The notes under the pieces are model-generated. The model saw only the letters and a list, made by a program, of their open reading frames with translations, was not told where the DNA came from and made no database searches. From contig JANJWS010000085.1 in NCBI GenBank assembly GCA_024709425.1, forward strand, positions 1 to 64,000: DNA of 64,000 nt, read 5' to 3'. This DNA comes from Thiobacillus sp. (lineage in GTDB: Bacteria; Pseudomonadota; Gammaproteobacteria; Burkholderiales; Thiobacillaceae). A program made the translations under genes and the position numbers. Numbering within the stretch: position 1 is the first letter of the stretch; every line of letters begins with the position of its first letter. This document shows positions 10,660-27,635 of the stretch, in pieces.

Positions 10660-11349
10660 TCACCCCTGGAAGGTCTTCAGCCGGTGCGTGTCCAGCACAC
10701 GGATGGTGCGTCCGCTGACCTCGATGACGCCGCCTTCCGCCAGATGGTGGAGGGCACGCGAGAAGGTCTCCGGCGCCAGATTGAGCCGTGATGCGAGCAT
10801 CTGCTTGCTGGTATCGAGCCGGATTTCGCAGGACTTGGGTTCGTCCTCCGGCATCTGGTGGGACAGGTAGCTGACGACGCGCTGCAGGCTGTTCATCAGG
10901 GTGCAGGTCTCCATGTCCGCCATCAGTTCGTGCAGGCGCATGGAAATGCTCGCCAGCATCTTGCGGGCGAACACGGGGTTGCGGTCCATCATGGTGAGCA
11001 GGACGTCCTTGCCGACGATGAGCACCGTGCTGTCCTGTGTCGCCTCGGCGCATACCGGGCAGGGGCGGTCCAGAAACACCACGGCTTCCCCGAAGGACTG
11101 CCCGGGCTTCACCATCATGATCAGCTTTTCCGTGCCCTGGGCAGTCGTCATGAACAGCTTCGCCTGTCCGCTCACCAGCACATGAATGCCACGCAGGTTG
11201 TCCCCTTTTTGGAATAGCATCTCATGCGCATGTACCTTGAATTCACGTACGCCCGGCAGGAGCGGGGTCAGTTCCTCGGGCGGGATGCCGCTGAAGAGTG
11301 GCAGGCGGCGCAGGCTGTCGGGAATGGATTCGGGCGTGTAGGGTGTCAT
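10660..11349 (-). CDS. Crp/Fnr-family transcription regulator beside nap operon
   Basis: A protein of 229 aa. An N-terminal cyclic-nucleotide-type beta barrel is followed by a long dimer helix (about 120-148) and a winged helix. The recognition helix carries E194-TF-S197-R198, the ExxSR signature of proteins that read TTGAT-type FNR sites. The N-terminal cysteine cluster of oxygen-sensing FNR is absent; cysteines at 97 and 100 form a CPVC pair in the barrel, with others at 149 and 174. It is therefore likely a DNR/NarR-like member (heme/NO or redox sensing) rather than true FNR, though the signal is inferred. The gene diverges from napD, and an FNR-type box lies 78 bases upstream of its own start, so it probably controls nap and perhaps itself. 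Confidence 0.85.
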   Translation of the reverse strand: MTPYTPESIPDSLRRLPLFSGIPPEELTPLLPGVREFKVHAHEMLFQKGDNLRGIHVLVSGQAKLFMTTAQGTEKLIMMVKPGQSFGEAVVFLDRPCPVCAEATQDSTVLIVGKDVLLTMMDRNPVFARKMLASISMRLHELMADMETCTLMNSLQRVVSYLSHQMPEDEPKSCEIRLDTSKQMLASRLNLAPETFSRALHHLAEGGVIEVSGRTIRVLDTHRLKTFQG

Positions 11350-11427
11350 GGCGTGGAGCGGCTTGTTCCGGCGGGTCCGGGGAAGATAGGCAGCTTGGGT
11401 GGCTCAGGGTGGTAGTTTCGGATTTTC

Positions 11428-11441
11428 TTGATTTTGGTCAA
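11428..11441. promoter_or_regulatory. FNR/DNR-type operator upstream of napD
   Basis: TTGAT-TTTG-GTCAA matches the FNR/DNR consensus TTGAT-N4-ATCAA at 9 of 10 defined bases. If it acts as a class II activator site (centre at -41.5), transcription of nap would start near 11476, and a CAGAAT hexamer at 11464-11469 would sit at -10. The box is in the 150-base gap between the divergent Crp/Fnr gene and napD, and the regulator's ExxSR helix fits it. Confidence 0.8.
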
Positions 11442-11499
11442 GGTTTTTATTATTACCCCCAACCAGAATCGGGACAACCACGAATTTCGGAGATATCGG

Positions 11500-11811
11500 A
11501 TGAACATATCTGGAATCGCTGTCAGCACCCGCCCGGAGTGGGCGGAATCGGTGGCGCAGGCGCTGTCTGCTATAGAAGGAGTGGAGGTGCACGCGATCGA
11601 TGCCAATCGGGGTAAGCTCGTGGTCACCCTGGAGGCACCCAGTGTGAGCGCGGAGGTCGAAGGGTTCAAGCATATCCGCGCGGTACCTCATGTCGTTGCG
11701 GCGGATCTGGTGCAGCACTATTTCGAGCACGACGAGGAAATCGTCCACGCCATGCCGCCCGACCTCGACGGCATGGAAGGCGTCAGCGTGCCCACCGAGT
11801 TACAGGACTAA
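11500..11811 (+). CDS. napD: NapD, periplasmic nitrate reductase chaperone
   Basis: A protein of 103 aa, a small ferredoxin-fold chaperone that binds the Tat signal peptide of NapA in the cytoplasm until the cofactor is inserted. The N-terminus [20 protein letters not shown] and the [20 protein letters not shown] segment are typical. The C-terminus is somewhat longer and acidic compared with E. coli NapD (87 aa). It is the first gene of the nap operon, 10 bases before napA, behind an FNR-type box. A GGAGATATCGG-like stretch precedes the ATG. Confidence 0.9.
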
Positions 11812-11821
11812 GGAGACCAAC

Positions 11822-14563
11822 ATGCAAGTATCCCGTCGCGAATTCATCAAGTCCGGCATTGCTGCCAGCACGGCCAGCCTGGTCGGCCTGCCCATCTCGA
11901 AACTGGCCGAGGCGGCAGCGGCCGAGCTCGAGAAGGACTGGCAGTGGGACAAGGCCGTGTGCCGGTTCTGTGGCACCGGGTGCGGCATCATGGTCGCCAC
12001 CCACCAGGGCCGGATCGTCGCCACCAAAGGCGACCCCAATGCACCGGTGAACCGGGGGCTCAACTGCATCAAGGGCTACTTCAACGGCAAGATCATGTAC
12101 GGCAAGGACCGTCTGACGCACCCTCTGATGCGGATGAAGGATGGCAAGTTCGACAAGAAGGGCCAGTTCGTGCCGGTGACCTGGGAGCAGGCGTTCGACG
12201 AAATGGAACGCCAGTTCCGCAAGACCTATTCCCAGATGGGCCCCAGTGGCGTCGCGATGTTTGGCTCCGGCCAGTGGACCATCCACGAAGGCTACGCCAT
12301 GAACAAGCTGTTCAAGGCGGGCTTCCGTTCCAACAACCTCGATCCCAATGCGCGCAACTGCATGGCCAGCGCGGTGGCGGCGTTCTACAGCGTTTTCGGC
12401 ACGGACGAGCCGGCCGGTAACTACGATGACATCGAGCACACCGACACCATGGTGCTGTGGGGCGCCAACATGGCGGAAATGCACCCCATCCTGTGGTCGC
12501 GTATCACCGATCGCCGGCTCGCGCACAACAACTGCCGCATCGTCAATCTCACCACCTTCCGCAACATGTCGTCTGACATCGCGGATCTGGAAATCATCTT
12601 CAAGCCGAACACCGATCTGGCGATCCAGAACTACATCGCGCGCGAGATCATCGCCCGTGATGCGATGAACAAGGCCTTCGTCGAGAAGCACTGCGTATTC
12701 GCCACCGGCCCCTACGACATCGGCTACGGCATGCGTGCCACCGACAAGTACGCCTACCCGGCGGAAAAGGACACCCAGGCCAAGGAGGTGAAGGTCAAGC
12801 TCGACAAGTGGGAGGCGATCGGCCAGCGGAGAAAAGAAGGCGACGTGGTCGAGCAGAAGAACACCGCCGATCCGGCGAAGCACTGGATGATCAGCTTCGA
12901 TGACTTCAAGAAGGGCGTCGAACCCTACACGCTCGATTACGTCGCGGAACTGGCCAAGGGCGATCCGGACGAGTCGCTCGACACCTTCAAGGCCAAGTTG
13001 AAGCAGCTGGCGGACCTGTACATCGAACCGAACCGCAAGGTGGTGTCGTTCTGGACCATGGGCTTCAACCAGCACCAGCGCGGCACCTGGGTCAACGAGC
13101 AGTGCTACATGAACCACTTGCTGCTGGGCAAGCAGTCGATGCCCGGCAATGGCGCGTTCTCGCTGACCGGCCAGCCGTCGGCCTGCGGCACTGCACGCGA
13201 GGTTGGCACTTTCTCGCATCGCCTGCCGGCGGATCGTCTTGTCCCCAATCCGCAGCATCGCGCCGAGACCGAGCAATACTGGAAGGTTCCGGCGAAGACG
13301 CTCAATCCCAAGATCGGTTCGTTCTACGCCAAGATCCTGCGTGACCTCGAGGACGGGTCGGTGAAGTGGGCCTGGGTGCAGGTCAACAACCCCTGGCACA
13401 CCCACCCGAACGCCAATCACTGGATCCGTGCGGCGCGCGAGCAGGACAACTTCATCATCGTGTCGGAGGTCTATCCCGGCATCTCCGCCAAGGTCGCCGA
13501 CCTCATCCTGCCGTCCGCGATGATCTTCGAGAAATGGGGCGGCTACGGCAACGCCGAGCGCCGTACCCAGCAGTGGCGCCAGCAGGTGCCGCCCCCGGGG
13601 CAGGCGCGTGGCGACCTGTGGCAGACCCTGGAGTTTGCCAAGCGTTTCAAGCTGAAGGATTTCTGGGGCGAGCAGAAGGTGCCCGGGCTCAAGGCCGACG
13701 GTTTTGCCGACAACACCCTGCCGGACGTCATGGCCGAGGCGCAAAAGATGGGCTATTCGCCGGACGACAGCCTGTACAAGGTACTGTTCGCGACGCCGGA
13801 TAACCTCAAGGTGAAATGGCCGGACGCGGTGGCCAAGGGCCACGACAACCATGTTGCCAAGCTCCTGGGGGATGGCTGGTTTCCTGAAAAGGCCTTCTGG
13901 AAGGAATACCAGCTGTTCGGCAAGGGCAAGGGCAAGGACCTCGCCGACTTCGATGTCTATCATCAGGACAGCGTGCGTGGTCTCAAGTGGCCGGTGGTCA
14001 ACGGCAAGGAAGTCGCCTGGCGCTTCAACGAGCAGTATGACCCCTACGTGACAAAGGGCGCCGGCATCGAGTTCTACGGCAAGTTGTTCAAGGCCATTCC
14101 GAGCGGCAACCTTGACGGCATCACCGACCCTGCGCCGAAGAGCCTTGCTGGCAAGGCGAAGATCTTCTTCCGCCCGTATGCCGCGCCGGCCGAGCAGCCG
14201 GACGCGAACTACGACTTGTGGCTGTGCACCGGTCGTGTGCTCGAGCACTGGCATTCCGGCACCATGACGCGTCGCGTGCCCGAACTGCATCGTGCGGTCC
14301 CGGCGGCAGTGTTGTGGATGCACCCGACCGACGCCAGCGCGCGCGGCCTCAAGCGCAACGACCTGGTGTGGGTCGAATCGCGCCGTGGCAAGGTCAAGGT
14401 GCGGGTCGAGACCGGCGGGCGCAACAAGATGGTGAAAGGTACGGTGTTCGTGCCCTTCTTCGACGAGGGCGTCTTCATCAACCGCGTCACACTCGACACG
14501 ACCTGCCCGATTTCCAAGGAAAGCGACTACAAGAAGTGCGCGGTCAAGATCTACAAGGCGTGA
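11822..14563 (+). CDS. napA: NapA, periplasmic nitrate reductase catalytic subunit, long form
   Basis: A protein of 913 aa that reduces nitrate to nitrite in the periplasm with a Mo-bis-MGD cofactor and one [4Fe-4S] cluster. A Tat signal (SRREFIK) starts it. Cysteines 47, 50, 54 and 82 ligate the cluster, and Cys180 in the [12 protein letters not shown] stretch is the expected Mo ligand. The C-terminal cofactor domain has [14 protein letters not shown]. At 913 aa it is well above the usual proteobacterial length (E. coli 828) and close to the roughly 920-930 aa of Campylobacter/Wolinella NapA. Extra sequence lies around residues 305-375 and 620-720. The ATG at 11822 was chosen for the Tat motif and the AAGGAGACC site just upstream; the frame is open earlier. 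Confidence 0.95.
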
Positions 14564-14612: not shown

Positions 14613-15395
14613 ATGGATGCGGGGCGGCGGGAATTCCTGATGCGGACCATGCAGGGTGCGGCAGTCGCGGCCTGCGGTGGTTTGCTGTGGTCGCACCTGT
14701 TGCGTCAGGAAGCGGCGGCGGCGATGCTTGCGCTGCGCCCGCCGGGTGCGCTGGCCGAGACCGATTTCGCCGCCGCCTGTATCAAGTGCGGCCAGTGCGT
14801 GGACGCCTGTCCGTACGATACCTTGAGCCTCGCGCGCGCCGAGGACGGCGCGCCCATCGGTACGCCGTATTTCGTGCCACGCAAGGTGCCGTGCTACATG
14901 TGCACCGATTTCCCCTGCGTGCCGGCTTGCCCGACCGGCGCGCTCGACCCGCAGTTCAAGGATATCGCCGACGCGCGCATGGGGCTGGCGGTGATCGACG
15001 CCGAATCCTGCCTGTCGTGGCAAGGTTTGCGCTGCGAGGTGTGTTACCGCGTCTGCCCGGTCAAGGATACGGCCATCACCATCCAGAACCATCCGCGCCA
15101 GCTGAGCAAGCACGCGATGTTCGTGCCCATCGTCCACTCGCAGGCCTGTACCGGTTGCGGCATGTGCGAGGAAGCCTGCCCCACCGAGGAGGCGGCCATT
15201 CGCGTGCTGAATCCCAAGCTGGTGCAGGGACGTATCGGCGACCATTACCGGCTGGGGTGGAAAGGCGAGCCGGCGTCGGGCTCGCTGGCACCCGCCGAGC
15301 CGTCGTCTGCCCCCACGGCACCGCCGCCAGCCGATACGGCGATACCGGAGAAAGCACCGGGAATGGATGTGCTCAATGAAGAACTCGAACTGTGA
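14613..15395 (+). CDS. napG: NapG, ferredoxin-type quinol-dehydrogenase subunit
   Basis: A protein of 260 aa with a Tat signal (GRREFLM) and four [4Fe-4S] motifs: CIKCGQCVDACP, CYMCTDFPCVPACP, CLSWQGLRCEVCYRVCP and CTGCGMCEEACP. With NapH it forms the membrane quinol dehydrogenase that passes electrons to NapB/NapA. The C-terminal 45 residues are a Pro/Ala-rich tail not seen in the core family. It starts 49 bases after napA and overlaps napH by 4 bases (GTGA). No napC gene is present, so NapGH probably carries the whole quinol-to-Nap flow. Confidence 0.93.
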   Translation: MDAGRREFLMRTMQGAAVAACGGLLWSHLLRQEAAAAMLALRPPGALAETDFAAACIKCGQCVDACPYDTLSLARAEDGAPIGTPYFVPRKVPCYMCTDFPCVPACPTGALDPQFKDIADARMGLAVIDAESCLSWQGLRCEVCYRVCPVKDTAITIQNHPRQLSKHAMFVPIVHSQACTGCGMCEEACPTEEAAIRVLNPKLVQGRIGDHYRLGWKGEPASGSLAPAEPSSAPTAPPPADTAIPEKAPGMDVLNEELEL

Positions 15396-16252
15396 ACGCA
15401 CCGCCCAAGTCGCCGAAGGTCAGCCTGTGGGGCTGGCGTCACCTGATCCTGCGCCGCAGTGTGCAGTTCGCGGTGCTGCTGATGTTCTTCGGCACCCTGC
15501 ACTGGGGCTGGGAAGTGGCCGGTGCGCCCTTGCTGCGCGGCAATCTCTCGGCTGCGGAACTGCTTGGCGTGCTTCCGCTGGCCGACCCCTTCGCAGTGCT
15601 GCAGCAACTGGTTTCCGGGCACTGGCTGCATACCACGGTGCTGACCGGCGCGGGGGTTATCCTGGTCTTCTACGCCTTCGCCGGGCGGGTGTTCTGCGCG
15701 TGGGTGTGTCCGATGAATCTCGTGACGGATTCGGCCGCCTGGCTGCGCACCCGGCTCAATCCGAAAAATCTCTTCACGCTGCCGCGCACCACGCGTTACT
15801 GGTTTCTCGGTATGGCGCTGGTGCTGTCCGCCCTGACGGGGGTTGCCGCCTTCGAATGGGTGAGCCCGATCTCGATGCTGCACCGCGAACTGATCTACGG
15901 TGCCGGCCTGGGGCTAACTGCGGCGCTCGGGATTTTCATTTTCGACCTGCTGATCCTGAAGCACGGCTGGTGCGGCCACCTGTGCCCGCTTGGCGCGTTT
16001 TACGGGCTGCTGGGCAGCCGTGCAGCGATCCGTGTGCGCTTCGACGACGCAAGCTGCACGCGTTGCGGCGAGTGCGCACGCGTGTGTCCGGAGCCGCAGG
16101 TGCTCAACCTGAAGCAGGCGGCGGAACGGGGTATGGTTGCATCGGGTGCGTGCACCAACTGTGGCCGTTGCCTGCCATCGTGCCCCGAAAACAGCTTGGA
16201 TTTTGCCTGGCGCTGGCAAGCGCGACCGCAAGGTACGACGAAACAACCCTAA
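15392..16252 (+). CDS. napH: NapH, membrane quinol-dehydrogenase subunit
   Basis: A protein of 286 aa starting at GTG, overlapping the napG stop. It has about four membrane helices, then two cytoplasmic [4Fe-4S] motifs (CTRCGECARVCP and CTNCGRCLPSCP), and two conserved CxxxCP loops between helices (CAWVCPMN and CGHLCPLG). It takes electrons from quinol and passes them to NapG. It lies in the order napD-A-G-H-B with no napC, napE or napF. Confidence 0.93.
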   Translation: MNAPPKSPKVSLWGWRHLILRRSVQFAVLLMFFGTLHWGWEVAGAPLLRGNLSAAELLGVLPLADPFAVLQQLVSGHWLHTTVLTGAGVILVFYAFAGRVFCAWVCPMNLVTDSAAWLRTRLNPKNLFTLPRTTRYWFLGMALVLSALTGVAAFEWVSPISMLHRELIYGAGLGLTAALGIFIFDLLILKHGWCGHLCPLGAFYGLLGSRAAIRVRFDDASCTRCGECARVCPEPQVLNLKQAAERGMVASGACTNCGRCLPSCPENSLDFAWRWQARPQGTTKQP

Positions 16253-16268
16253 CCAAGAGGAAACGGAG

Positions 16269-16733
16269 ATGAAAAAGACCATCACGGCAGTTCTGGCGAT
16301 TGGCCTCGTGGGTGTGACCTATGGTGCGCTGCAGGCGGCCGAGGTCGTGGTGCGCGACGATCAGATTGGCCTTTCGGCGACCAGCGTGTTCGACGATCCC
16401 ACTCCGGACGTCTTCGACTATCCGGAGACCGAACCTTCGGCGGCGCAGGCCCTGAAACGTGCTTATTTCGGCGCGCCGCCGCAGGTGCCGCACAAGATCG
16501 AGAACCTTTTGCCGATTCGTGCAAAAAAGAACGCATGCCTGCGCTGCCACGACGCGCCGGACGACATCGGCAAGGCGCGCGCTGCCGGCGATCCCACCCC
16601 CATGCCACTGAGTCACTATGTGAAGCTCGACGACGGCAGCCTGAAGCGGGGGGACAACCGACATGTCTGCGTGCAATGCCATGCGCCGCAGGCGAACGTG
16701 AAGGACCTGGTGGGCAACACCTTCGCGCCCTGA
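16269..16733 (+). CDS. napB: NapB, diheme c-type subunit of nitrate reductase
   Basis: A protein of 154 aa with an N-terminal signal peptide (residues 1 to about 23) and two heme c sites, CLRCH (90-94) and CVQCH (134-138). His75 and His116 are in position to be distal ligands, as in the NapB family. It receives electrons from NapG and hands them to the NapA cluster. A clear AACGGAG ribosome-binding site precedes the ATG at 16269. It closes the nap cluster; a 155-base gap with its own possible promoter follows. Confidence 0.92.
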   Translation: MKKTITAVLAIGLVGVTYGALQAAEVVVRDDQIGLSATSVFDDPTPDVFDYPETEPSAAQALKRAYFGAPPQVPHKIENLLPIRAKKNACLRCHDAPDDIGKARAAGDPTPMPLSHYVKLDDGSLKRGDNRHVCVQCHAPQANVKDLVGNTFAP

Positions 16734-16888: not shown

Positions 16889-17455
16889 ATGGGTAGACGC
16901 GCTGTGACGGCCATGGTTCTGGCCGGACTTTTCGGTTCGGCTCACGCCGCCGAGTCCATCGAGACTTTGGCCAATACCTGCAACAACTGCCACGGTATCG
17001 GAGGGGTGTCCGTGGGGCCCAGCATGCCGTCCATCGGCGGTCTGCCCGAATCCTATCTCACCAACGTCATGCTGGAGTGGAAGAGCGGGACGCGTTTTTC
17101 CGCGACCATGGGGCGCCTGCTGAAGGGCTACAGCGACGTGCAGATTGCCGATCTTGCTGCCTATTTCTCCAGGAAGCCGTGGGTGCCGCAGGCGCAAAAG
17201 ACCGATGACGCACGGGTGCGGCTTGGTGCGCAATCGCTCAAGCGCTGTGCGGTGTGCCACGGTGACGACGGCGTGGCGCGCGATGCCGTGACCCCGCATC
17301 TCAACGGGCAGTGGGCAGGCTATCTCCATCTCGAAGCACTCAAGTATCGCGATGACGCGACTGCGATGCCGAACCAGCAGATGCGCCGGGCTCTGCAGCG
17401 GCTGAGCGACGAGGAGCTGCGGGCCGTCTCGGACTATTACGCAAGCCAGAAATAA
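16889..17455 (+). CDS. fccA: FccA, diheme cytochrome subunit of sulfide dehydrogenase
   Basis: A protein of 188 aa with a signal peptide (residues 1-20, AHA|AE) and two heme c sites, CNNCH (31-35) and CAVCH (120-124), in a duplicated c4-like fold. The stretch SVGPSMPSI and, further on, [17 protein letters not shown] match the FccA pattern of Allochromatium flavocytochrome c, and the protein ends with YYASQK as that family does. It accepts electrons from the FccB flavin and passes them to periplasmic c-type acceptors. The ATG at 16889 follows a GGGAGGC site. fccB follows 13 bases later. Confidence 0.85.
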
Positions 17456-17468: not shown

Positions 17469-18770
17469 ATGAGCCGATTCAATCGTCGTGACTTCCTCAA
17501 GGCGATCGCCGTTGGCATCCCCGCTGCGGGGATGCACATTCCCCTGGCGCGTGCGAACGGAAGTTCGCGTGTCGTGGTGGTGGGGGGGGGCTTTGGCGGG
17601 GCGGTTGCGGCCAAATATCTGAAAATGATGGCGCCATCGGTCGACGTCATTCTCGTCGAGCGCAACCAGGTTTACGTGTCGTGCCCGCTGTCCAACGAAG
17701 TCATCTCCGGGCATGGCAACCTCAAGGATCTGGAGGTCGGCTACGACGGTTTGCAGAAGCGCGGCGTCACCGTCATTTTCGATGAGGCGACCGCCATCGA
17801 TCCGGTCAAGCGCAGCGTGGCACTCAAGGGCGGCAAGACGCTTGCCTATGATGCGCTCGTGCTCTCGCCCGGCATCGACTTCAATTACGCGGGTGTCGAA
17901 GGCTACAGTGCGGAGCTGGCGGACGGTGATTTGCCGCACGCCTACAAGGCGGGTCCGCAGACGCTCGCACTGAAAAGGCAGCTGGAGGCTATGCCCGACG
18001 GGGGGACCTTCATCATTGCGGTGCCGCCCGGGCCGTTCCGCTGTCCGCCCGGCCCCTACGAGCGCGCGTCGCAGGTGGCTGCCTACCTGAAGGGGCACGG
18101 CAAGGCCAAATCGAAGGTACTCATCCTGGACGCCAACGATTCCTTCTCCAAGAAGGGCTTGTTCGAACAGGCGTGGAAAACGCACTACGGCAACATGATC
18201 GAGTGGGTACCCGGCGCATCCGACGGCAGGGTCGTCAAGATCGATCCCAAGACGAAGACGGCCTTCACCAACTTTGGTGAGCACAAGGCCGACGTTCTCA
18301 ACGTCATCCCGCCTCACCATGCCGGAAACATCGCGCAGACGGCGGGCCTCACCAACGAAAAAGGCTGGTGCCCGGTCGACATGCTGACCATGGAATCGAC
18401 CGTGCAGAAGAACGTGTGGGTCGTCGGCGACGCCTGCGTGCATGGTGACCTGCCGGTCTATCCGATGCCGAAGTCGGCGCATGCCGCGGTAACCCAGGCT
18501 AAGGTGGCGGTGGGTGCGATCGTCGCCCGCCTCGCCGGCAAGCCGGCGCCGGAGCCCCATTTCGTCAACACCTGTTACAGCATCGCCGCGCCCGAATGGG
18601 GGTTCTCGGTGGTGCACGTCTATCGGGTGGAAGATGGCAAGCTGATCTATGCGCAGGAGGCAGGCGGCATCTCCGCGATCGATACGCCGGCCATCGCCAC
18701 GCTGCGCAAGCTGGAGGCGGAGTACGCCGTCGGCTGGCTGAAGAACATCATGGCGGACTGTTTCGCCTGA
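17469..18770 (+). CDS. fccB: FccB, flavoprotein subunit of sulfide dehydrogenase
   Basis: A protein of 433 aa that oxidises sulfide to sulfur/polysulfide. A Tat signal (NRRDFLK) ends near Ala29. The FAD-binding [10 protein letters not shown] is at 35-44. Cys72 (YVSCPLSNE) fits the cysteine that binds FAD covalently in A. vinosum FccB, and Cys192 ([11 protein letters not shown]) with Cys369 (NTCYS) fits the active-site disulfide; subtracting the signal peptide gives numbers close to the published Cys42, Cys161 and Cys337. The catalytic set is therefore complete. A 9-G run (17582-17590) encodes the FAD-binding glycines and is a possible slippage site. SoxF is a close relative, but the paired fccA favours Fcc. 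Confidence 0.9.
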
Positions 18771-18808
18771 TCGCACGCATTGACCGAGTTCTTTCGAGGG
18801 AGAACGCC

Positions 18809-20518
18809 ATGAGCAGAGGGAATCGTTTTTCGCGCGGGCTGCTGGCCGCGGTCGCGGCATGGCTCGGGCTTGCCGCACACGCCGCGCCGACACCGCCGAT
18901 CAAGCCGGTGGATGCCGAGAAGTGTTTCGCGTGCCATGTCGAAATCGAGGATTTCCATGCAGAGGGGCGTCACGCCACGGTGAACTGCGCGCACTGCCAT
19001 GAAAACGCGGATGCGCATCTGAAAACAGCCAAGCCCAAGAACATGGGTACGCGCCCGGTGACTGTTGTCGATCATCGCGCGTGCGCCAGCTGCCACGCCG
19101 ACCAGTACAACTCCTTCGTGCAGACCAATCTGCATTCGCCGGCGCGTCTGGAGAAGGCGACCTTCAAGGGACGCTCCCCGCTGTTCGACAAGCTGATGGA
19201 AGGATATGGCTTTACCAAGGAACACGGCGAGCCACGCTCGCATGCTTTCATGCTGGTCGACCAGTGGGCGGTCGACCGCGGCTTCGGTGGCCGCATCCAG
19301 TTCAAGGACTGGACCTATATCAACAAGGCCGAACTGGCGGCGAACAATGCGTGGAACGTGCTGGTGGACCGCGAGCCGGAAACCTCCGACCAGAAGAAAT
19401 TCATGCGCCAGACGGTCACGGCTGTCAACCCGGTGTGCATGAACTGCAAGACGCAGGACCACATTCTCGACTGGAGCTATCGAGGCGAGAAGCATCCTGC
19501 TGCGAAGTGGGACCGCACCACGAAGCCGGTCGAATTCGCACGCGCAATGAAGCATCCGCTCAATTGTTTCATGTGCCACGATCCGCACTCGGCGGGGCCG
19601 CGCGTGGTGCGCGATGCGCTGATCCATGCCGTGGTGGACCGCAAGCTGGGCACCTATCCCATGGATCCGGAAAAGAGCCAGAAGACGACGATGACCAAGG
19701 TCACGTTCAAGCGTAACGGCACTGATTTTCGCGCCATTGGCGTGCTCAACCGGACCGACTCCAACCTGATGTGCGCGCAATGTCACGTCGAGTACAACTG
19801 CGGGCCCGGCTATGACTGCACCGATCCGGAAGACCACAAGCCGGTTGGTATGGCGGACGCACGCACCAACCTGTTTCCGTGGACCAACGTCTTCGGCTAC
19901 AAGAAGGTCATGGCTGAGGACTACAAGTTCAAGGACTTCAAGCACGCTGGCACCGGTGCGTATCTGCCCAAGATCCAGCATCCGGAGTTCGAGACGTACT
20001 GGGGCTCCAAGCACGAGCGGGCGGGCGTCGAGTGCAAGAACTGCCACATGCCGAAAAAGGTTCTGGCCAATGGCAAGACGCTGACTTCGCACCAACAGAT
20101 GTCGCCGCGATTCCAGATCAAGGAAACCTGCCTCACCTGCCACAAGGACTGGAGCGAGAAGGATGCGCTCTACCACATGGATTCGGTGCAGAACTACGTG
20201 CGTGGCAAGCTCGCCAAGGCCGAGTTCTGGCTCGCCAGCCTGATCGACTGGATCGGCAAGGCGCAGCAGGATGGCAAGGTGCCGAAGGACGTGATGGACA
20301 AGGCCTACGACCTGCAGTACGACGCCACCCTCTACTGGGAATGGTGGACCGCCGAGAACTCCGACGGCTTCCATAACCCGCAGAACGCGCGCGAATCGCT
20401 GACCCGTTCGGTCGATGCGTCGCAGGAAGGCATCGCACTCCTGAAGAAGGCGCTCGGCGTCGACAAGGTGCCGGCCAGTGTCGGCAACAGCAAGGCGTCT
20501 GCGCAGAAAGCGTACTGA
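18809..20518 (+). CDS. Octaheme cytochrome c nitrite reductase (ONR/TvNiR type)
   Basis: A protein of 569 aa with a 26-residue signal peptide. Eight heme sites: CFACH 39-43, CAHCH 60-64, CASCH 92-96, CMNCK 210-214, CFMCH 253-257, CAQCH 322-326, CKNCH 409-413 and CLTCH 441-445. The fourth is CXXCK, as in the catalytic heme of NrfA and of the octaheme enzyme of Thioalkalivibrio nitratireducens. After removal of 26 residues, Lys214, Arg157, Tyr329 and Cys331 become 188, 131, 303 and 305, the numbers I know for the TvNiR catalytic lysine, arginine and crosslinked Tyr-x-Cys pair. A Gln-His (390-391) fits the remaining pair. It should reduce nitrite to ammonium with six electrons. It has no nrfH or nrfBCD beside it; FccA is the nearest possible donor. 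The ATG at 18809 follows CGAGGGAGA. Confidence 0.92.
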   Translation: MSRGNRFSRGLLAAVAAWLGLAAHAAPTPPIKPVDAEKCFACHVEIEDFHAEGRHATVNCAHCHENADAHLKTAKPKNMGTRPVTVVDHRACASCHADQYNSFVQTNLHSPARLEKATFKGRSPLFDKLMEGYGFTKEHGEPRSHAFMLVDQWAVDRGFGGRIQFKDWTYINKAELAANNAWNVLVDREPETSDQKKFMRQTVTAVNPVCMNCKTQDHILDWSYRGEKHPAAKWDRTTKPVEFARAMKHPLNCFMCHDPHSAGPRVVRDALIHAVVDRKLGTYPMDPEKSQKTTMTKVTFKRNGTDFRAIGVLNRTDSNLMCAQCHVEYNCGPGYDCTDPEDHKPVGMADARTNLFPWTNVFGYKKVMAEDYKFKDFKHAGTGAYLPKIQHPEFETYWGSKHERAGVECKNCHMPKKVLANGKTLTSHQQMSPRFQIKETCLTCHKDWSEKDALYHMDSVQNYVRGKLAKAEFWLASLIDWIGKAQQDGKVPKDVMDKAYDLQYDATLYWEWWTAENSDGFHNPQNARESLTRSVDASQEGIALLKKALGVDKVPASVGNSKASAQKAY

Positions 20519-20673: not shown

Positions 20674-21303
20674 ATGACCCCGCCCGTACTTTCCGCCCAC
20701 GATCTCGCCTGTGAACGCAGCGAGCGCGCGCTGTTCCGGGGGCTTGGCTTCGATCTCGGCGCAGGGGAGGCGCTGTGGGTACGCGGTGGCAACGGCCATG
20801 GCAAGACCAGCCTCTTGCGCATCCTGTGTGGTCTGTCACAGCCCGCCGCGGGTGAGGTGCGCTGGCGCGGGGAACTGCTCGATCGCATGCGCGAGCGGTA
20901 CGGACGTGAAATGGCCTACGTCGGCCATGCCAATGGCATCAAGGACGACCTCACGCCGCTGGAAAACCTTCGCCTTGCCGCGGAACTGGGTGGGCGAGAA
21001 CTGAACGAATCGAACGCTGTGACTGCCCTGGAGCGGGTCGGGCTGGGGCGTTGCCTCGACCTGCCGGCGCGCGTGCTTTCCTTTGGCCAGCGCAGACGCG
21101 TCGCCCTGGCCAGCCTCCTGACCGCCGGTGCGGTGTTGTGGATTCTCGACGAACCCCTGACCGGCCTCGACGTCGACGGGGTCGCCATGGTGGAAGGACT
21201 GATCCAGGATCACGTTGCCGCCGGCGGCATGGCCGTCATGACGACCCACCAGCCGTTTGCGTTCACGGATATCACGCCCAAGTCGATTTCGGTCGGGGAA
21301 TGA
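20674..21303 (+). CDS. ccmA: CcmA, heme-export ABC ATPase
   Basis: A protein of 209 aa, the ATP-binding subunit of the CcmABCD complex that releases holo-CcmE. The Walker A motif is GGNGHGKT at 38-45; the signature LSFGQRRRVALA and Walker B WILDEPLTGLD follow. The length is normal. It heads the ccm run, 155 bases after the octaheme nitrite reductase, behind a hairpin and a poly-C tract. The ribosome-binding site is weak. Confidence 0.93.
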   Translation: MTPPVLSAHDLACERSERALFRGLGFDLGAGEALWVRGGNGHGKTSLLRILCGLSQPAAGEVRWRGELLDRMRERYGREMAYVGHANGIKDDLTPLENLRLAAELGGRELNESNAVTALERVGLGRCLDLPARVLSFGQRRRVALASLLTAGAVLWILDEPLTGLDVDGVAMVEGLIQDHVAAGGMAVMTTHQPFAFTDITPKSISVGE

Positions 21304-21325: not shown

Positions 21326-21994
21326 ATGCTGCGCTTCCTGACCACTGTGATCCGCCGCGACATCCTGCTTGCTGCGCGCCGGCGCGGCGACTGGCTGACT
21401 GCGCAGTTTTTCTTCGTCATGGTGACGAGCCTGTTCCCACTCGGCATCGGCCCGGAGCCGACGATGCTGCGCAGCATCGGTCCCGGCGTGGTATGGGTCG
21501 CAGCGCTGCTCGCCTGCCTGTTGTCACTGGGGCGACTCTACGCCGACGATCATCGCGACGGCAGTCTGGAACAATTGCTGCTTTCGCCCTATCCCAACAC
21601 CGTCCTCGCGCTGGGCAAGGCGCTCGCGCACTGGATCATCAATGGTATTCCGCTGCTGTTGATCGCGCCGGTACTCGGTATCCAGTTCGGCCTGCCGGGC
21701 GATGCCCTGTGGGTGCTGGTGCTGTCGCTGGCGATCGGCACGCCCATCCTGTCTCTGCTGGGCGGCATCGGCGCGGCACTGACCCTCGGCCTGCGTGGCG
21801 GCGGGGTGCTGATCACTTTGCTGATCCTGCCCCTGTACGTGCCGGTACTGATTTTCGGGGCGGGCGCGGTCGAGGGCACGCTCTCGGGAACTGGCGCCGA
21901 GGCGCACCTGTCCCTGTTGGGGGCCTTGCTGGTGATGGCCCTGCTGATTGCGCCCTGGATCAGCGCACTGGCCCTCAGGGTCTCCGTGGAGTAA
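21326..21994 (+). CDS. ccmB: CcmB, heme-export ABC permease
   Basis: A protein of 222 aa with six predicted membrane helices and the family N-terminus (VIRRDILLAARRRGDW). It is the membrane partner of CcmA in cytochrome c maturation System I. The ATG lies 22 bases after the ccmA stop. FPLGIGPEP and YADDHRDGSLEQLLLSPY are the conserved family stretches. Confidence 0.93.
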   Translation: MLRFLTTVIRRDILLAARRRGDWLTAQFFFVMVTSLFPLGIGPEPTMLRSIGPGVVWVAALLACLLSLGRLYADDHRDGSLEQLLLSPYPNTVLALGKALAHWIINGIPLLLIAPVLGIQFGLPGDALWVLVLSLAIGTPILSLLGGIGAALTLGLRGGGVLITLLILPLYVPVLIFGAGAVEGTLSGTGAEAHLSLLGALLVMALLIAPWISALALRVSVE

Positions 21995-21998: not shown

Positions 21999-22733
21999 TT
22001 GAACTTCTATCATTACGCCTCGCCGGCGACCTTCTATCCGCTCGCCGGCCGGCTCATTCCGTGGTTCGCTGGACTTGCCGCCATCCTGACAGCGGTCGGG
22101 CTGTACATCAGTTTCTTCGTCGCACCCACCGACTTTCAGCAGGGCGAGGGCTACCGCATCATTTTCATCCACGTGCCTGCGGCCTGGATGTCGATGTTCA
22201 TCTATGTCGTGATGGCGTTCTGGTCGGCCATCGGGCTGGCCTGGAACACCCGGCTGTCCTTTGTCATGGCGCGCGCACTGGCACCGACGGGCGCACTGTT
22301 CACCTTTCTCGCCTTGTGGACTGGCGCATTGTGGGGCAAGCCCATGTGGGGCGCGTGGTGGGTATGGGACGCGCGTCTTACCTCCTCGCTGATCCTGCTG
22401 TTCCTCTACGTCGGCTACATGGCGTTGCAGGCGGCCATCGACGATCCGCGTCGCGCCGACCGCGCCGGCGCGCTGCTCAACCTGGTCGGCGTTATCAACG
22501 TGCCGATCATCTATTTCTCGGTGAAGTGGTGGAATACCCTGCACCAGGGTGCGTCGGTGAGCCTTACCCGCGCGCCTTCCATGGCGCAGACCATGCTGTG
22601 GGGCATGCTGATCATGGCGCTCGCCGCCTGGATGTACACCATCGCGGCAGCACTGGCCCGTTCGCGTACCCTGCTGCTCGAACGTGAACGCCGCACCGAC
22701 TGGGCGCGTGCCGAAATCGGGAGACGGACATGA
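21999..22733 (+). CDS. ccmC: CcmC, heme-handling protein of System I
   Basis: A protein of 244 aa with six membrane helices and the tryptophan-rich heme-binding WWD motif ([13 protein letters not shown]) near residues 115-127, flanked by conserved periplasmic histidines (HVPAAW and TLHQGAS). It loads heme onto CcmE. I chose the TTG at 21999, which gives the family-typical N-terminus [16 protein letters not shown]; the frame is open further upstream inside ccmB but that part is unconserved. It overlaps ccmD by 4 bases. Confidence 0.92.
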
Positions 22734-22903
22734 TGTGGGAAAGCTGGGATGCTTTCTGGGCCATGGGTGGCTATGCGTTCTACGTGTGGGGTTCCTTCGG
22801 TGTCACCCTCGCCTGCGTGGCGGGCGAAGTGTGGCTGTTGCGCCGCCAGCGCCGGCAGGTATTGAGCCGCCTGCGCCGCATGCAAAGCCTGGATTCGCAA
22901 TAA
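22730..22903 (+). CDS. ccmD: CcmD, small membrane protein of System I
   Basis: A protein of 57 aa: [20 protein letters not shown], then a single membrane helix ([17 protein letters not shown]) and a basic tail (RRQRRQ...RLRRM). That is the normal CcmD plan: a WxAFWxMGGY...VW start, one helix and a positive cytoplasmic end. It stabilises CcmC-CcmE contact in the heme-release complex. It starts at the ATGATG overlapping the ccmC stop. The size and place between ccmC and ccmE make the call safe. Confidence 0.9.
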
Positions 22904-22917
22904 CCGTGAAGATGGCC

Positions 22918-23364
22918 ATGAAATCGCGTCACAAGAAACTCGCCCTGATCGTTCTCGTCGTCGCCGCGCTCGGCATTGCCGCGGGGCTCGTGCTCAACGC
23001 CTTCCAGAGCAACCTGGTGTTCTTCTTCTCGCCGACCCAGGTCGCCAACGGCGAGGCGCCGACCGGCCGCGCCTTCCGCATCGGCGGCCTGGTCGAGGAG
23101 GGCAGCATCCAGCGGCAACCCGACGGCCTGTCGGTACACTTCGTCGTGACCGACACCGCACGCACGATCCCGGTCGTCTATACGGGAATCCTCCCCGACC
23201 TGTTCAAGGAGGGCAAAGGCGTCGTCGCCGAGGGCCAACTGGGCAGCGATGGCGTGTTCACTGCGACCCAGGTGCTGGCGAAGCACGATGAGAACTACAT
23301 GCCCCCGGAAGCGGCCCACGCGGTGGAACAAGCGCAGAAGGCCCAGCAGTCGGTGGTCGAATGA
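22918..23364 (+). CDS. ccmE: CcmE, heme chaperone
   Basis: A protein of 148 aa with an N-terminal membrane anchor (residues about 7-27) and a periplasmic OB-fold domain. His123 in [11 protein letters not shown] is the residue that binds heme covalently, and Tyr127 is the expected heme-iron ligand. I chose the ATG at 22918 ([10 protein letters not shown]), 7 bases after a GAAG; another ATG at 22912 would add two residues. It carries heme from CcmC to CcmF/H. Confidence 0.93.
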
Positions 23365-23411: not shown

Positions 23412-25388
23412 ATGATCCCGGAACTTGGCCACTTCGCCCTCATCATCGCGTTGCTGCTGGCATTGGTGCAGGCGATCCTGCCGCTTTACGGGGCGCAACG
23501 TGGCAACCGCACCCTGATGGCGGTGGCGCGCCCGGCCGCCCAGGGGCAGTTCATGTTCATCGTGCTTGCCTTCGGCTGCCTCGCCTGGTCCTTCCTCGTC
23601 AACGATTTCTCGGTGCTGAACGTGGCGCGGAACTCGTATTCGCGCCTGCCAGAGGTTTATCGTTTCACCGCGACATGGGGTTCGCATGAGGGTTCGATGC
23701 TGTTCTGGGTGATGATCCTGGGGTTCTGGAGCGCTGCGGTTTCGGTATTTTCGCGCCATCTCCCGGAAGACATGGCGGCGCGCGTCCTGGGCGTCATGGG
23801 GCTCATTGCGGTAGGCTTTCTTGCCTTTCTCCTGACTACCTCGAATCCGTTCGTGCGTCTCGTGCCCGCCGCGCCGGACGGCAACGACATGAACCCGCTG
23901 CTGCAGGATTGGGGCATGATCGTGCATCCACCGATGCTCTACATGGGTTACGTCGGCTTCGCGGTCGCCTTCGCCTTTGCCATTGCCGCGCTGCTTTCCG
24001 GCAAGCTCGACGCGGCCTGGGCCCGCTGGTCGCGGCCGTGGACGACGGTGGCCTGGGGCTTCCTCACACTGGGTATCGTGCTTGGCAGCTGGTGGGCCTA
24101 CCGTGAGCTCGGCTGGGGGGGGTGGTGGTTCTGGGATCCCACCGAAAACGCCTCGTTCATGCCGTGGCTGGCCGGCACCGCACTCATCCACTCGCTGGCG
24201 GTCACCGAAAAGCGTGGCGCCTTCAAGGCGTGGACCGTGCTGCTTGCGCTGCTGGCCTTCTCCCTGTCGCTGCTCGGTACCTTCCTCGTGCGTTCCGGTG
24301 TGCTGTCCTCGGTGCATGCCTTCGCCACTGACCCGGCGCGCGGTGCCTTTATCCTCGGGTTCCTCGCGGTGGTGATCGGCGGCTCGCTCGCGCTGTATGC
24401 GTGGCGTGCACCGAAGATGATCACTGGCGGTGGGTTTACGTGGTTCTCACGCGAGTCGCTGCTGCTCGCCAACAACGTCATCCTGGTCGCGGCGCTCGGC
24501 GCCGTGCTGCTCGGTACGTTGTATCCCCTCTTCATGGACGCCATGGGTCTGGGCAAGATTTCCGTCGGTCCGCCGTACTTCAATGCGGTGTTCGTGCCGT
24601 TGATGGCGCCGGCGCTGTTCCTCATGGGAGTCGGGCCACTCGCACGCTGGAAGGATGCCAGCCTGCCCGACGCGGTGGCACGTCTCAAATGGGCGCTCGT
24701 CGTGGCCGTCGCCACCGCCATCCTGTTGCCGCTCACACTTGATGGTTTCAAGCCATGGGCGAGTCTTGGCTTCTTCCTCGCCGTGTGGATCACGCTGGCG
24801 GTGGGCGTGGCGTTGCGCGACCGCCTGCGCCACGGCGCGGGCAGCCTCGGGCAGAAGCTGCGGTCGGTTCCGCGCGGGTTCTGGGGCATGCAGTTGGCGC
24901 ATTTTGGTGTCGCGGTGGGCATCGCGGGGATTGCGGTGGTGGCCAACTACGAAAGCGAGCGGGATGTGCGCATGGACATCGGCAGCTATGCCGAGCTGGC
25001 GGGCTATACCTTCACCTTCCGCGGAGCGAGCGAATACGATGGCCCCAACTACCGCGCGGCGCGTGGCACGGTGGATGTGACGAAGAACGGCAAGCCGGTC
25101 GGCACGCTGCATCCGGAGAAACGCCTGTACAACGCTTCCGGCATGGCCATGACGGAGGCGGCCCTCGATTCGGGTACGTTCCGCGACGTCTACGTTGCCA
25201 TGGGTGAGCAGCTCGACGAACAAGGCGCATGGAGCGTGCGCCTGTTCCACAAGCCCTTCATCAACTGGCTGTGGCTGGGGGCGACGTTCATGGTCGTGGG
25301 GGGCTTTCTCGCCGCGTCCGACAAACGCTACCGCATCGCCCTGCGGCGAAGCGAACTGCCGCGCGGCGTTGCCGTGCAGGGGGCCTGA
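23412..25388 (+). CDS. ccmF: CcmF, cytochrome c heme lyase subunit
   Basis: A protein of 658 aa with many membrane helices and the WWD signature (WGGWWFWDPTENASFMPWL) around residue 235, preceded by HPPMLYMGYVG. It is the large membrane part of the heme lyase that joins heme from CcmE to apocytochrome CXXCH sites. AAGGAGAACAC precedes the ATG. Note that the window also encodes a CXXCK protein: in E. coli that motif needs a dedicated lyase (NrfEFG), yet no second ccmF/nrfE is visible here. Confidence 0.95.
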   Translation: MIPELGHFALIIALLLALVQAILPLYGAQRGNRTLMAVARPAAQGQFMFIVLAFGCLAWSFLVNDFSVLNVARNSYSRLPEVYRFTATWGSHEGSMLFWVMILGFWSAAVSVFSRHLPEDMAARVLGVMGLIAVGFLAFLLTTSNPFVRLVPAAPDGNDMNPLLQDWGMIVHPPMLYMGYVGFAVAFAFAIAALLSGKLDAAWARWSRPWTTVAWGFLTLGIVLGSWWAYRELGWGGWWFWDPTENASFMPWLAGTALIHSLAVTEKRGAFKAWTVLLALLAFSLSLLGTFLVRSGVLSSVHAFATDPARGAFILGFLAVVIGGSLALYAWRAPKMITGGGFTWFSRESLLLANNVILVAALGAVLLGTLYPLFMDAMGLGKISVGPPYFNAVFVPLMAPALFLMGVGPLARWKDASLPDAVARLKWALVVAVATAILLPLTLDGFKPWASLGFFLAVWITLAVGVALRDRLRHGAGSLGQKLRSVPRGFWGMQLAHFGVAVGIAGIAVVANYESERDVRMDIGSYAELAGYTFTFRGASEYDGPNYRAARGTVDVTKNGKPVGTLHPEKRLYNASGMAMTEAALDSGTFRDVYVAMGEQLDEQGAWSVRLFHKPFINWLWLGATFMVVGGFLAASDKRYRIALRRSELPRGVAVQGA

Positions 25389-25390
25389 AG

Positions 25391-25912
25391 ATGAAACGCT
25401 GGTTGCCGCTGCTCGCCTTCCTGATCCTGGTCGGCTTTTTCGCCAAGGGACTGTTTCTCAATCCGCGTGAGGTGCCCTCGCCGTTCATCGGCCGCGCCGC
25501 GCCGGCATTCACCCTGCCACTGGTCGGCGCTTCGGGCGGGCAATTCAGCCCGGCGGACATGCGCGGCAAGGTATGGCTGCTCAACGTGTGGGCACCGTGG
25601 TGCGTGTCGTGCCGCCAGGAACATCCGGTTCTGATGCAGATCGCCGCGACGGGGCGCGTGCCCATCGTCGGCCTCAACTGGAAGGACCGTGACCGCGAGG
25701 CAGCCGCGCTCCTCGCGCGCACCGGCAGTCCCTATGTGGCGGTGGCCGAGGATCTGGACGGCCGGGTCGGCATCGACTATGGCGTCACCGGCACGCCCGA
25801 GACCTATGTCATCGACCGCGAGGGCATCGTGCGCATGAAGCACATCGGGCCGATCAGCCCTGCTATCTGGCAGGAGAAGCTGGAACCGAAACTGAAGGAG
25901 CTGGGCGTATGA
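25391..25912 (+). CDS. ccmG: CcmG/DsbE, thiol-disulfide oxidoreductase
   Basis: A protein of 173 aa with an N-terminal membrane anchor (residues 4-23) and a thioredoxin fold whose active site is WCVSC (Cys71 and Cys74; the family is usually WCxxC). The GVTGTPETYVID loop carries the cis-proline. It reduces apocytochrome or CcmH cysteines before heme attachment. It starts 2 bases after ccmF and overlaps ccmH by 4 bases. Confidence 0.93.
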   Translation: MKRWLPLLAFLILVGFFAKGLFLNPREVPSPFIGRAAPAFTLPLVGASGGQFSPADMRGKVWLLNVWAPWCVSCRQEHPVLMQIAATGRVPIVGLNWKDRDREAAALLARTGSPYVAVAEDLDGRVGIDYGVTGTPETYVIDREGIVRMKHIGPISPAIWQEKLEPKLKELGV

Positions 25913-26379
25913 GCGGCAGCCCGACTTTCGTGCTGGCGTTGTTGCTGGCTGTTGCTTCGCCCGCGCATGCCGAGGCGCCGCATGCGGCGGCGCCCAACGC
26001 CGAAAATCCCGAGATCGAGCAACGTCTGGTCAGGCTGGGGGAGGACCTGCGCTGTCTGGTATGCCAGAACGAGTCGCTCGCCGGTTCCAAGGCCGAGCTT
26101 GCCGAGGACCTGCGGCGCGAGATTCGCGAGCAGATGAAGGCGGGCAAGAGCGATGCCGAGGTGATCGATTACCTGACGGAGCGCTACGGCGATTTCGTGC
26201 TCTATCGGCCGCCCTTCAAACCGGTGACCTGGTTGCTGTGGCTTGGTCCGGTGTTGTTCCTGGGGGCGGGGGGCGCAGCCTGGTACCTGGCGCTGCGGCG
26301 GCGCCGCGCGGCGGCGACCGAGCCGCCGGATGCACAGAAGCTCGCCGCCGCCGCCCGCTTGCTGGACGAAGGGCGATGA
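25909..26379 (+). CDS. ccmH: CcmH, apocytochrome thiol-reducing subunit
   Basis: A protein of 156 aa with a signal peptide, a periplasmic helical domain carrying the redox pair LRCLVCQN (Cys49 and Cys52), and a C-terminal membrane helix (about residues 106-127). The order and size match N-terminal E. coli CcmH, with the TPR part encoded separately as ccmI. It overlaps ccmG and ccmI by ATGA junctions. Confidence 0.93.
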   Translation: MSGSPTFVLALLLAVASPAHAEAPHAAAPNAENPEIEQRLVRLGEDLRCLVCQNESLAGSKAELAEDLRREIREQMKAGKSDAEVIDYLTERYGDFVLYRPPFKPVTWLLWLGPVLFLGAGGAAWYLALRRRRAAATEPPDAQKLAAAARLLDEGR

Positions 26380-27635
26380 CTCTGTCCTCGACGGCCGTAC
26401 TGTTCTGGGGGGGAGCGATCGCACTTGTGGCGATCGCCCTGGCCTTCGTGTTGCCCCCTCTCCTGCGTTCGCGCAAGGCTGCCGGTGCCGCCGGGCGGCG
26501 CGACATCAACATCGCCGTCTACCGCGATCAGATGAGGGAACTGGAGGCCGACCGTGGCAGCGGCCTGATCCCGGAAGACCAGTACCAGGCGGCACGACAG
26601 GAATTGGAGTTGCGCCTCGCGGACGATGCGCTCGCGCCCGAGTCCTCCCCCGAGCCGGCCGCCGCCAACAGTCGAGGTCTCGGCTACACCCTTGCCGTCG
26701 CGCTGCCGCTCGCGGCGTTCGGTCTGTATGTCTGGCTGGGTAATCCCACCGCGATGGACGCTCCGGTGCCTGCCGCGATGGCCGATGGAGACGGCGCGCA
26801 CGACGTCATGGCGATGGTGCGCAAGGTCGAGGAACGCGCTCGCGCCAATCCCGACGACGCACAGGCCTGGGAAGTGCTCGCCAGGACCTACGCGGCGCTG
26901 GAGCGCTGGGCAGATTCGCAGCAAGCCTACGCGCAGGCGTTGCGGCTGCGTCCCGACACGCCGGCGTTGATGACCGGCCTCGCCGAGGTGCTGGCGGTTG
27001 CCGGCAACGGCAATCTCAAGGGACGGCCGATGGAACTGGTGCTGCGGGCGCTGGAGATCGACCCCAATGATCCCAAGGGGCTGGAACTCGCCGGCCTCAA
27101 TACCTTCCAGGAGGCCAACTTTGCCCAGGCGGCGTATTACTTCAAGCGTCTGCATGCGCTGCTGCCACCCGAATCGGAGTTCGCACGGGATGTACTGGCT
27201 GCGCGCCAGGAAGCCGAGCGCCGCGCGCATGCCGCGATGAGCGGGCTGGACAGCCTTGCTGCACCGCCTGCGGCGAAGGCGCCGGCAGCCTCCGCCGGCT
27301 GGATCGAGGGGCGGGTCGAGCTTTCGCCCGCCCTCAGGGCGAACGTGGGCCCCGACGATACGGTCTTCCTGTTCGCTCGCGCCCCGCAGGGTGGGGCGCC
27401 GGTTGCCGCACTGCGCGCCAGCGCCGCCAGGTTGCCGCTGGATTTCCGCCTCGACGACAGCATGGCGATGAGTCCTGCCAATGCCCTGTCTGGCCAGCAG
27501 CAGGTCACCCTGGTGGCGCGGGTTTCCCGCTCGGGGGACGCCACGGCGCGGCCGGGCGATCTGGAAGGTCGCCTGGCTGACGTCAAGGTGGGTGTGAGCG
27601 ACGTGCGCATCGTCATCGACAGGGCACTGCCTTAG
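26376..27635 (+). CDS. ccmI: CcmI, TPR chaperone for apocytochrome c
   Basis: A protein of 419 aa. Two membrane helices near the N-terminus (about 8-30 and 109-124) flank a cytoplasmic loop with DINIAVYRDQMRELEADR, typical of CcmI. TPR repeats follow (DAQAWEVLARTYAALERW and the next two units) and then a C-terminal beta-rich domain (GRVELSPAL...DTVFLFARAPQG). It presents apocytochromes to CcmH/F. It ends the ccm cluster; a 206-base gap with the pyrG promoter follows. Confidence 0.92.
   Translation: MTLSSTAVLFWGGAIALVAIALAFVLPPLLRSRKAAGAAGRRDINIAVYRDQMRELEADRGSGLIPEDQYQAARQELELRLADDALAPESSPEPAAANSRGLGYTLAVALPLAAFGLYVWLGNPTAMDAPVPAAMADGDGAHDVMAMVRKVEERARANPDDAQAWEVLARTYAALERWADSQQAYAQALRLRPDTPALMTGLAEVLAVAGNGNLKGRPMELVLRALEIDPNDPKGLELAGLNTFQEANFAQAAYYFKRLHALLPPESEFARDVLAARQEAERRAHAAMSGLDSLAAPPAAKAPAASAGWIEGRVELSPALRANVGPDDTVFLFARAPQGGAPVAALRASAARLPLDFRLDDSMAMSPANALSGQQQVTLVARVSRSGDATARPGDLEGRLADVKVGVSDVRIVIDRALP

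Follow-up and report, generated by a model that had tools for sequence, protein, structure and literature searches.

The DNA analysed here (hereafter the window) comprises bases 1–64000 of the 81-kb contig JANJWS010000085.1 (C40) of a Thiobacillus sp. genome (GCA_024709425.1; 2.7 Mb, 90.5% complete, 6.1% contaminated). Positions 10660–27635 hold an island with genes for nitrate reductase (Nap), flavocytochrome c sulfide dehydrogenase (FCSD; FccAB), an octaheme nitrite reductase (ONR) and cytochrome c maturation (Ccm), all on the plus strand, with a divergent regulator gene at the left edge and the end of ccmI at the right (Table 1). Gene identities were assigned by profile searches and matches to solved structures, and these bore out the content and coordinates given in a preliminary description made from the letters alone (nap, fccAB, ONR, nine ccm genes and a divergent Crp/Fnr gene). 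NapA is accompanied by NapB and NapD, with NapG and NapH, both above cut-off, as the quinol-linked donor, and the ccm genes make up the full system I set, ccmABCDEFGHI. The only frames with at least two haem motifs in the 64 kb are napB, fccA and onr. A NapC/NrfH-type gene was therefore not found in this haem-motif scan of the window's frames (the rest of the genome was not searched), so that no such donor for ONR is encoded nearby. Rfam and tRNA searches of the window gave no matches.

Table 1. Genes and regulatory site of the nap-fccAB-onr-ccm island (window positions; aa, amino acids).
Feature	Position	Strand	Basis or remark
Crp/Fnr-superfamily regulator, divergent	10660..11349	-	cNMP_binding, HTH_Crp_2
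Perfect FNR/DNR-type palindrome TTGATTTTGGTCAA	11428..11441		before napD
napD	11500..11811	+	PF03927, 2.7e-23
napA, 913 aa	11822..14563	+	NF010055 and TIGR01706 above cut-off; 1341 bits vs cut-off 904
napG	14613..15395	+	NF007012 above cut-off
napH	15392..16252	+	NF007013 above cut-off
napB, diheme	16269..16733	+	PF03892; 2 CXXCH
fccA, diheme cytochrome subunit	16889..17455	+	Cytochrome c domains; 2 CXXCH; conserved position before fccB
fccB, flavoprotein of flavocytochrome c sulfide dehydrogenase	17469..18770	+	PF21706 2.5e-48, PF09242 2.6e-20
onr, TvNiR-type octaheme nitrite reductase (predicted)	18803..20518	+	Cytochrom_C552 family; 2zo5 8.9e-221
ccmA	20674..21303	+	TIGR01189 above cut-off
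ccmB	21326..21994	+	TIGR01190, PF03379
ccmC	21999..22733	+	TIGR01191 above cut-off
ccmD, 57 aa	22730..22903	+	TIGR03141, PF04995
ccmE	22900..23364	+	NF009729, PF03100
ccmF, CcmF/NrfE family haem lyase	23412..25388	+	TIGR00353 above cut-off, PF16327
ccmG, DsbE family	25391..25912	+	TIGR00385 above cut-off
ccmH	25909..26379	+	PF03918 7.9e-49
ccmI	26376..27635	+	TIGR03142 above cut-off, PF23892

The ONR sequence contains seven CXXCH motifs and one CMNCK, the fourth, at position 212. Its residues R159, K216, Y331, C333, Q392 and H393 align with R131, K188, Y303, C305, Q360 and H361 of TvNiR from Thioalkalivibrio nitratireducens, which we take to be the catalytic set under that numbering, and the match extends over the full length. 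With eight c-haem sites (the fourth CXXCK) and the active-site Arg, Lys, Tyr-x-Cys and Gln-His, the protein is predicted to be a TvNiR-type enzyme. The window's onr sits behind fccAB and nap, whereas two distant members of the class (f184) have onr-ccmF without fccAB; the Thioalkalivibrio locus (L043) begins 18 bases before onr, the upstream region lying outside it. ONR enzymes are described, in the sections of the reports available, as hexamers that reduce nitrite, hydroxylamine and sulfite (PMC12285233, PMC5433712, PMC8840924), with the CXXCK haem and the Tyr-Cys link documented in PMC12285233. CcmF of the island, which exceeded one NrfE model's cut-off of 394 with 498 bits and fell short of another's cut-off of 927 with 735 bits, may serve the CXXCK haem of ONR. 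An 11-C run at 20580–20590, inside the 155-base onr-ccmA gap, is a possible sequencing or slippage site. At 913 aa, NapA is longer than the NapA model (830), and frames of at least 916 aa are usual among the family's full-length napA matches.

FccB matched the solved FCSD structures 1fcd (1.8e-119) and 3vrd (2.2e-123). Its cysteines C72, C192 and C369 align with C42, C161 and C337 of 1fcd, presumably the FAD-linking cysteine and the redox pair, and were invariant in all 69 FccB sequences of a first tree (see below). Both FCSD flavoprotein domains are present, a diheme cytochrome frame lies 13 bases upstream as would suit the diheme subunit of 1fcd, and the pair is accordingly a predicted sulfide dehydrogenase. 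The fccB-onr gap is 32 bases. The fccA start at 16889 was picked by eye, an alternative in-frame ATG being located at 16811.

The divergent regulator belongs to the Crp/Fnr superfamily but remained below every NCBIfam cut-off (best, 99 bits of 211, for FtrB). Its cysteines are found only at 97, 100, 149 and 174, and FNR proper, a 4Fe-4S oxygen sensor, was rejected since the N-terminal cysteine cluster is absent and NF008365 gave 45 bits against a cut-off of 228. A Crp/Fnr fold without Fe-S cysteines and with an FNR-like box nearby is part of the combination that, together with NO sensing, marks the DNR/NnrR type, to which the protein may belong. The box, TTGATTTTGGTCAA, ends 58 bases upstream of the napD ATG and is the sole perfect match in 64 kb to TTGAYN4RTCAA, which we take to be the FNR/DNR consensus (0.08 expected; at least one in 7 of 100 shuffles), in agreement with the matching box mentioned in the preliminary description. 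Of the other nap loci examined in the family, all five (L133, L135, L138–L140) also have a perfect box before napD; none was found there in two Nitrospirota nap loci (L086, L087).

Among the best 80 of 174 relatives in an ONR scan of named genomes, fccB stood directly before onr in 21 (L021–L025, L028–L041, L052, L057); in L026 fccAB lies 4.8 kb before onr, and L027 begins 199–268 bases before it. The other loci among these 80 nearly all lacked fccAB, were mostly from other phyla and were about 44–61% identical. The family sample comprised 117 genomes, all searched; onr was present in 34, and 41 had a close fccB (E no greater than 1e-140), which occurred at 65 places in total. In 27 of the 34 family onr genes fccB was immediately upstream, with gaps of 33–428 bases; in the others fccB was cut by a contig end before onr (G765, G801), too little sequence lay upstream of onr (G773, G774), fccAB was 5 kb away (G796), or the ONR was distant, with 48% identity and no fccB directly before it (G770, G771). 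Across the 117 genomes, onr and nap occurred together in 32 (onr only 2, nap only 19, neither 64) and onr and close fccB in 30 (onr only 4, fccB only 11, neither 72), with Fisher p < 1e-12 in a set of related genomes for which p is only a guide. These figures support a link between the parts of the island. For G769, whose onr pieces lie on two contigs (C164, C228), the first row alone was counted, and the counts exclude L033, which shares a contig with L013, as well as L177 and L220, which represent the place of L030/G320. In other phyla, ONR was observed before a NapA-like molybdoenzyme (27–35% to the window's NapA) with NapG- and NapH-like genes (L060, L068, L075–L078 and others), and in L087 and L093 before a NapA of 61–62%.

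The unit commonly encountered is fccAB-onr(-ccm), in most cases separate from nap. The complete island order was found in the window, in L274 (G821), which also has ppsA upstream, and in part in L021 (G852), a 5-kb contig with napH-napB-fccAB-onr. Since a second genome of the genus shares the order, and L032 holds the parts with mtrAB inserted, an assembly artefact was ruled out. Conserved synteny, whose lack had been named beforehand as a ground for rejecting the island, thus exists uninterrupted in these few loci but is rare: in G830 (L032/L276) the order is nap-mtrAB-fccAB-onr-ccm-pyrG-kdsA, and in G851 of the same genus (L275) ppsA-crp-nap-fccAB is followed at 9498–16493 by an AraC gene, a monoheme frame, a NapC-like cytochrome, an MtrA-like decaheme and an MtrB-like gene in place of onr, and then by ccm. 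From these comparisons, the slot behind fccAB was exchanged between near relatives. The napDAGHB operons of L133, L135 and L138–L140 have the same genes, the divergent Crp/Fnr gene (L138 without a crp match) and the box; after napB, in contrast to the window, two genomes of the same family (G043, G261; L139, L140) carry other genes over about 2.4–2.9 kb, without fcc, onr or ccm, and then pyrG-kdsA. The window's fccAB-onr-ccm block occupies that place between napB and pyrG-kdsA. The names pyrG, kdsA, ppsA and ppsR, and the ModE-, DUF302-, CrcB- and TSUP-like names in L139, are our presumed assignments. The comparison suggests that the island arose when an fccAB-onr-ccm operon became joined to a nap operon, both of them older units. 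A unique self-contained cluster was ruled out, because fccAB-onr is frequent and its linkage to nap is limited to part of a single genus. A general tie of ccm to nap was likewise rejected, ccm lying behind onr in most fccAB-onr loci; three family loci (L284, L291, L292) have ccm directly behind fccB with no onr between.

The fusion is also reflected in the box pattern. A perfect box within 300 bases upstream of fccA was present in 16 of 20 fccAB-onr loci (mean 0.024 and maximum 1 in 500 resamples). The four without it are the window and L021, both with napB directly upstream, L029 (one mismatch) and L052. The box before fccA is missing in all four loci with napB directly upstream (window, L021, L274, L275) and retained in L276, where mtrAB lies between nap and fccAB. 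We infer that fccAB-onr moved under the nap promoter and that its own box then decayed, and because this box is lost, a single nap-fcc-onr transcript is probable in the window. Separate regulation, which had been named as evidence against the island, thus holds in part, in that fccAB-onr normally carries a box of its own, but probably not in the window.

In the first FccB tree (69 rows), the window's protein fell in a clade of 30 (support 100/98) that contained all 22 onr-linked FccB (23 labelled, before removal of L177); none of the 39 rows outside was onr-linked. Other members of the clade lay beside NapAB (1), a PhsA-like enzyme (2), a nine-haem protein (2) or other genes (3). FccA is diheme in this clade, which is thereby set apart from other flavocytochromes c, as are its changing redox partners; outside it FccA is mostly monoheme (29/39; the haem-motif tally took in L177, a two-motif duplicate of L030, leaving the monoheme count unaffected) and multiheme or molybdoenzyme neighbours are fewer (7/39). 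As the sample had partly been picked by nearness to onr, the analysis was repeated with the family-wide fccB search. At the 65 close fccB places the partner was onr in 27, a multiheme-cytochrome-b protein, mostly divergent, in 11, NapAB in 5 (L282 with a five-motif frame between), a pentaheme in 5, a PhsA-like molybdoenzyme with a TorD-type chaperone in 4, ccm directly in 3, an HAO-like octaheme with ccm in 2, MtrC-MtrA-MtrB in 1, NapC-MtrAB behind nap in 1, FGE/LuxR-type genes in 2, onr at 5 kb in 1 and a contig end in 3. Four of these loci (L130, L131, L277, L278) show the order fccA-fccB-PhsA/ArrA-like Tat molybdoenzyme-iron-sulfur protein (annotated in L277 and L278)-TorD-type chaperone-polyferredoxin, and in five genomes (L286–L290) fccAB is followed by a roughly 500-aa protein that has five CXXCH motifs and only weak family matches.

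A uniform partner rule (at least four haem motifs in any frame, or a molybdoenzyme match, within 3 kb of fccB) was satisfied at 29 of the 38 places that lack onr directly behind fccB and at 56 of 65 overall, compared to 7 of 39 outside the clade; for places with 3 kb of room on both sides the values were 23/27 and 7/33. The seven outside positives include two beside another molybdoenzyme (L181, L182), so that the partner habit is not strictly confined to the clade. A second FccB tree of 73 rows, 61 of them in the clade (support 100/98), was built after dropping six exact duplicates (L301, L256, L257, L261, L265, L270), the MtrCAB-linked L301 thus having no separate row. On this tree the onr label required 14 changes (12 forced by well-supported branches), nap 5 (4) and PhsA-like 4 (4), with one change each for the pentaheme, ccm and HAO labels. 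The nap and PhsA-like labels were as scattered as in shuffles, which is expected of repeated gain or gene conversion. In G797 (C18; L300, L301) a 1,901-base fccAB stretch occurs twice, 99.95% identical and about 24 kb apart, one copy before an HAO-like octaheme and ccm, the other before MtrC-MtrA-MtrB.

Neither fccAB with onr nor fccAB as an exchangeable donor was found described in the open-access literature searched, subscription papers lying mostly outside it, and the behaviour of this FccAB clade is the new and more interesting part. The closest precedent, going by the accessible sections of two reports, is the fccAB of thiocyanate dehydrogenase clusters, described as a putative electron acceptor (PMC5328954, PMC5744179). 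There, too, a flavocytochrome c adjoins an unrelated periplasmic enzyme as its proposed electron partner, but as acceptor from a dehydrogenase and with a monoheme subunit, whereas in the window it is a proposed donor to reductases with a diheme subunit.

The genome elsewhere encodes nirS and two nirS-like genes in one cluster (C95), nosZ and narG (C14), dsrA (C34), one napA above cut-off and two further fccB genes (C33, C64), both outside the window's clade (L136, L137); the contamination of 6% is a caveat on this gene content. A genome of the same genus (G167) also has nirS, nosZ, narG and dsrA. The organism thus appears, from its genes, to be a sulfur oxidiser with three denitrification steps (nor was outside the searched set) and ONR as an additional branch. 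Nitrite therefore has another fate than ONR, and this, together with the missing NapC/NrfH-like gene, speaks against the term "self-contained" used in the preliminary description.

NapGH is established to pass quinol electrons via NapB to NapA. In the island, this route would reduce nitrate to nitrite, periplasmic sulfide oxidation would take place on FccB, at the FAD and the pair of cysteines, and diheme FccA would hand the electrons, directly or via a small cytochrome, to ONR, which would reduce nitrite to ammonium with six electrons. The Ccm genes would provide haem attachment for NapB, FccA and ONR, and both units would be under one oxygen/NO-type regulator. FccAB would not be ONR-specific, the clade forming an exchangeable periplasmic electron module for multiheme or molybdenum partners. 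We consider it about an even chance that the island is, as a whole, best read as two fused units in which the exchangeable FccAB module feeds sulfide electrons to ONR. This reading builds on gene anatomy and operon order, on the catalytic residues kept, and on co-occurrence, the pattern of boxes and the changes of partner. The self-contained sulfide-driven ammonifying island proposed in the preliminary description is supported in part; sulfide-fed nitrate ammonification is plausible as a hypothesis. The wider proposition is held more tentatively, at somewhat less than even odds, namely that in Thiobacillaceae-type bacteria a single diheme FccAB can dock onto no fewer than five dissimilar partners (ONR, an HAO-like octaheme, NapAB, a PhsA-like molybdoenzyme and outer-membrane MtrCAB) and supply them with sulfide electrons, bypassing the quinone pool. 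The island would be the case fused with nap into one nitrate-to-ammonium operon, and in a close relative NapC-MtrAB holds the slot instead of ONR.

Several points weigh against feeding of ONR by a fused and exchangeable FccAB. The direction of electron flow, direct FccA-ONR transfer, the single transcript and ammonium as product are deduced from sequence. ONR does not need fccAB, as the distant ONRs of other phyla mostly lack it, and the counts are not independent given the kinship of the genomes. The partner criterion is broad and 9 of 65 places still fail it, and partner changes could be overcounted where fccAB copies within a genome have undergone gene conversion. FccAB might accept electrons beside PhsA-like or MtrCAB partners, because these could run in either direction. 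The perfect box before fccA was found in none of five NapAB-, five pentaheme- and 11 multiheme-cytochrome-b-linked loci, and in one of four PhsA-like-linked loci, and the four nap-fused loci may have lost it only once, in a common ancestor. Internal promoters could fit in the 155-base gaps that precede fccA and ccmA, and a weak promoter-like site lies at 16775–16803, within chance expectation; consensus scans gave four internal promoter-like sites (2.4 expected) and 13 terminator-like sites (12.3 expected), neither above chance.

The strongest rival, a serious one though less likely than the main reading, is that fccAB-onr is a detoxifying short circuit that removes sulfide and nitrite in the periplasm while energy comes from the Nar, Nap, NirS, NosZ and Dsr pathway. 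The narG, nirS, nosZ and dsrA genes of this genome suit such a division of labour, as does the periplasmic location of both half reactions, by which no charge would cross the membrane and the FccAB-ONR pair would conserve no energy by itself; detoxification, however, needs only nitrite from any source, and the strong nap-onr co-occurrence fits a nitrate-to-ammonium route instead. Less probable, though likewise to be taken seriously, is that FccAB is only co-regulated, delivering sulfide electrons to a common cytochrome c pool and perhaps shielding haem enzymes, with ONR fed by a quinol dehydrogenase encoded elsewhere. Sulfide binds haems, and ONR does occur without neighbouring fccAB in other phyla and in the two class members mentioned above, yet the repeated pairing with unlike partners and the 32-base fccB-onr gap exceed what a common regulon needs, and two other fccB genes are at hand for general sulfide oxidation. 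That FccAB works in reverse or without sulfide, as a flavin-haem shuttle taking or giving partner electrons, has the proposal for thiocyanate dehydrogenase clusters (PMC5744179, PMC5328954, as far as available) and the MtrCAB and PhsA-like partners, which could run either way, in its favour, but is very improbable given the three catalytic cysteines kept in 69/69, the diheme FccA of the clade and the presence of ONR-linked loci in sulfur oxidisers.

If FccAB does feed sulfide electrons to ONR, a sulfur oxidiser that otherwise denitrifies would gain a sulfide-driven means of removing nitrite. The accessible part of the literature leaves open which donor supplies octaheme nitrite reductases with electrons, and a dedicated sulfide-to-nitrite pair would give a direct test; a 2023 survey, in the sections available, reports onr as nearly negligible in soils and examines the denitrification genes beside onr, not the donors (PMC10716430). 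The donors that drive nitrate ammonification decide whether nitrogen stays in sulfidic sediments and groundwater, and an exchangeable FccAB, if true, would explain how sulfur oxidisers gain new electron acceptors by swapping one gene block.

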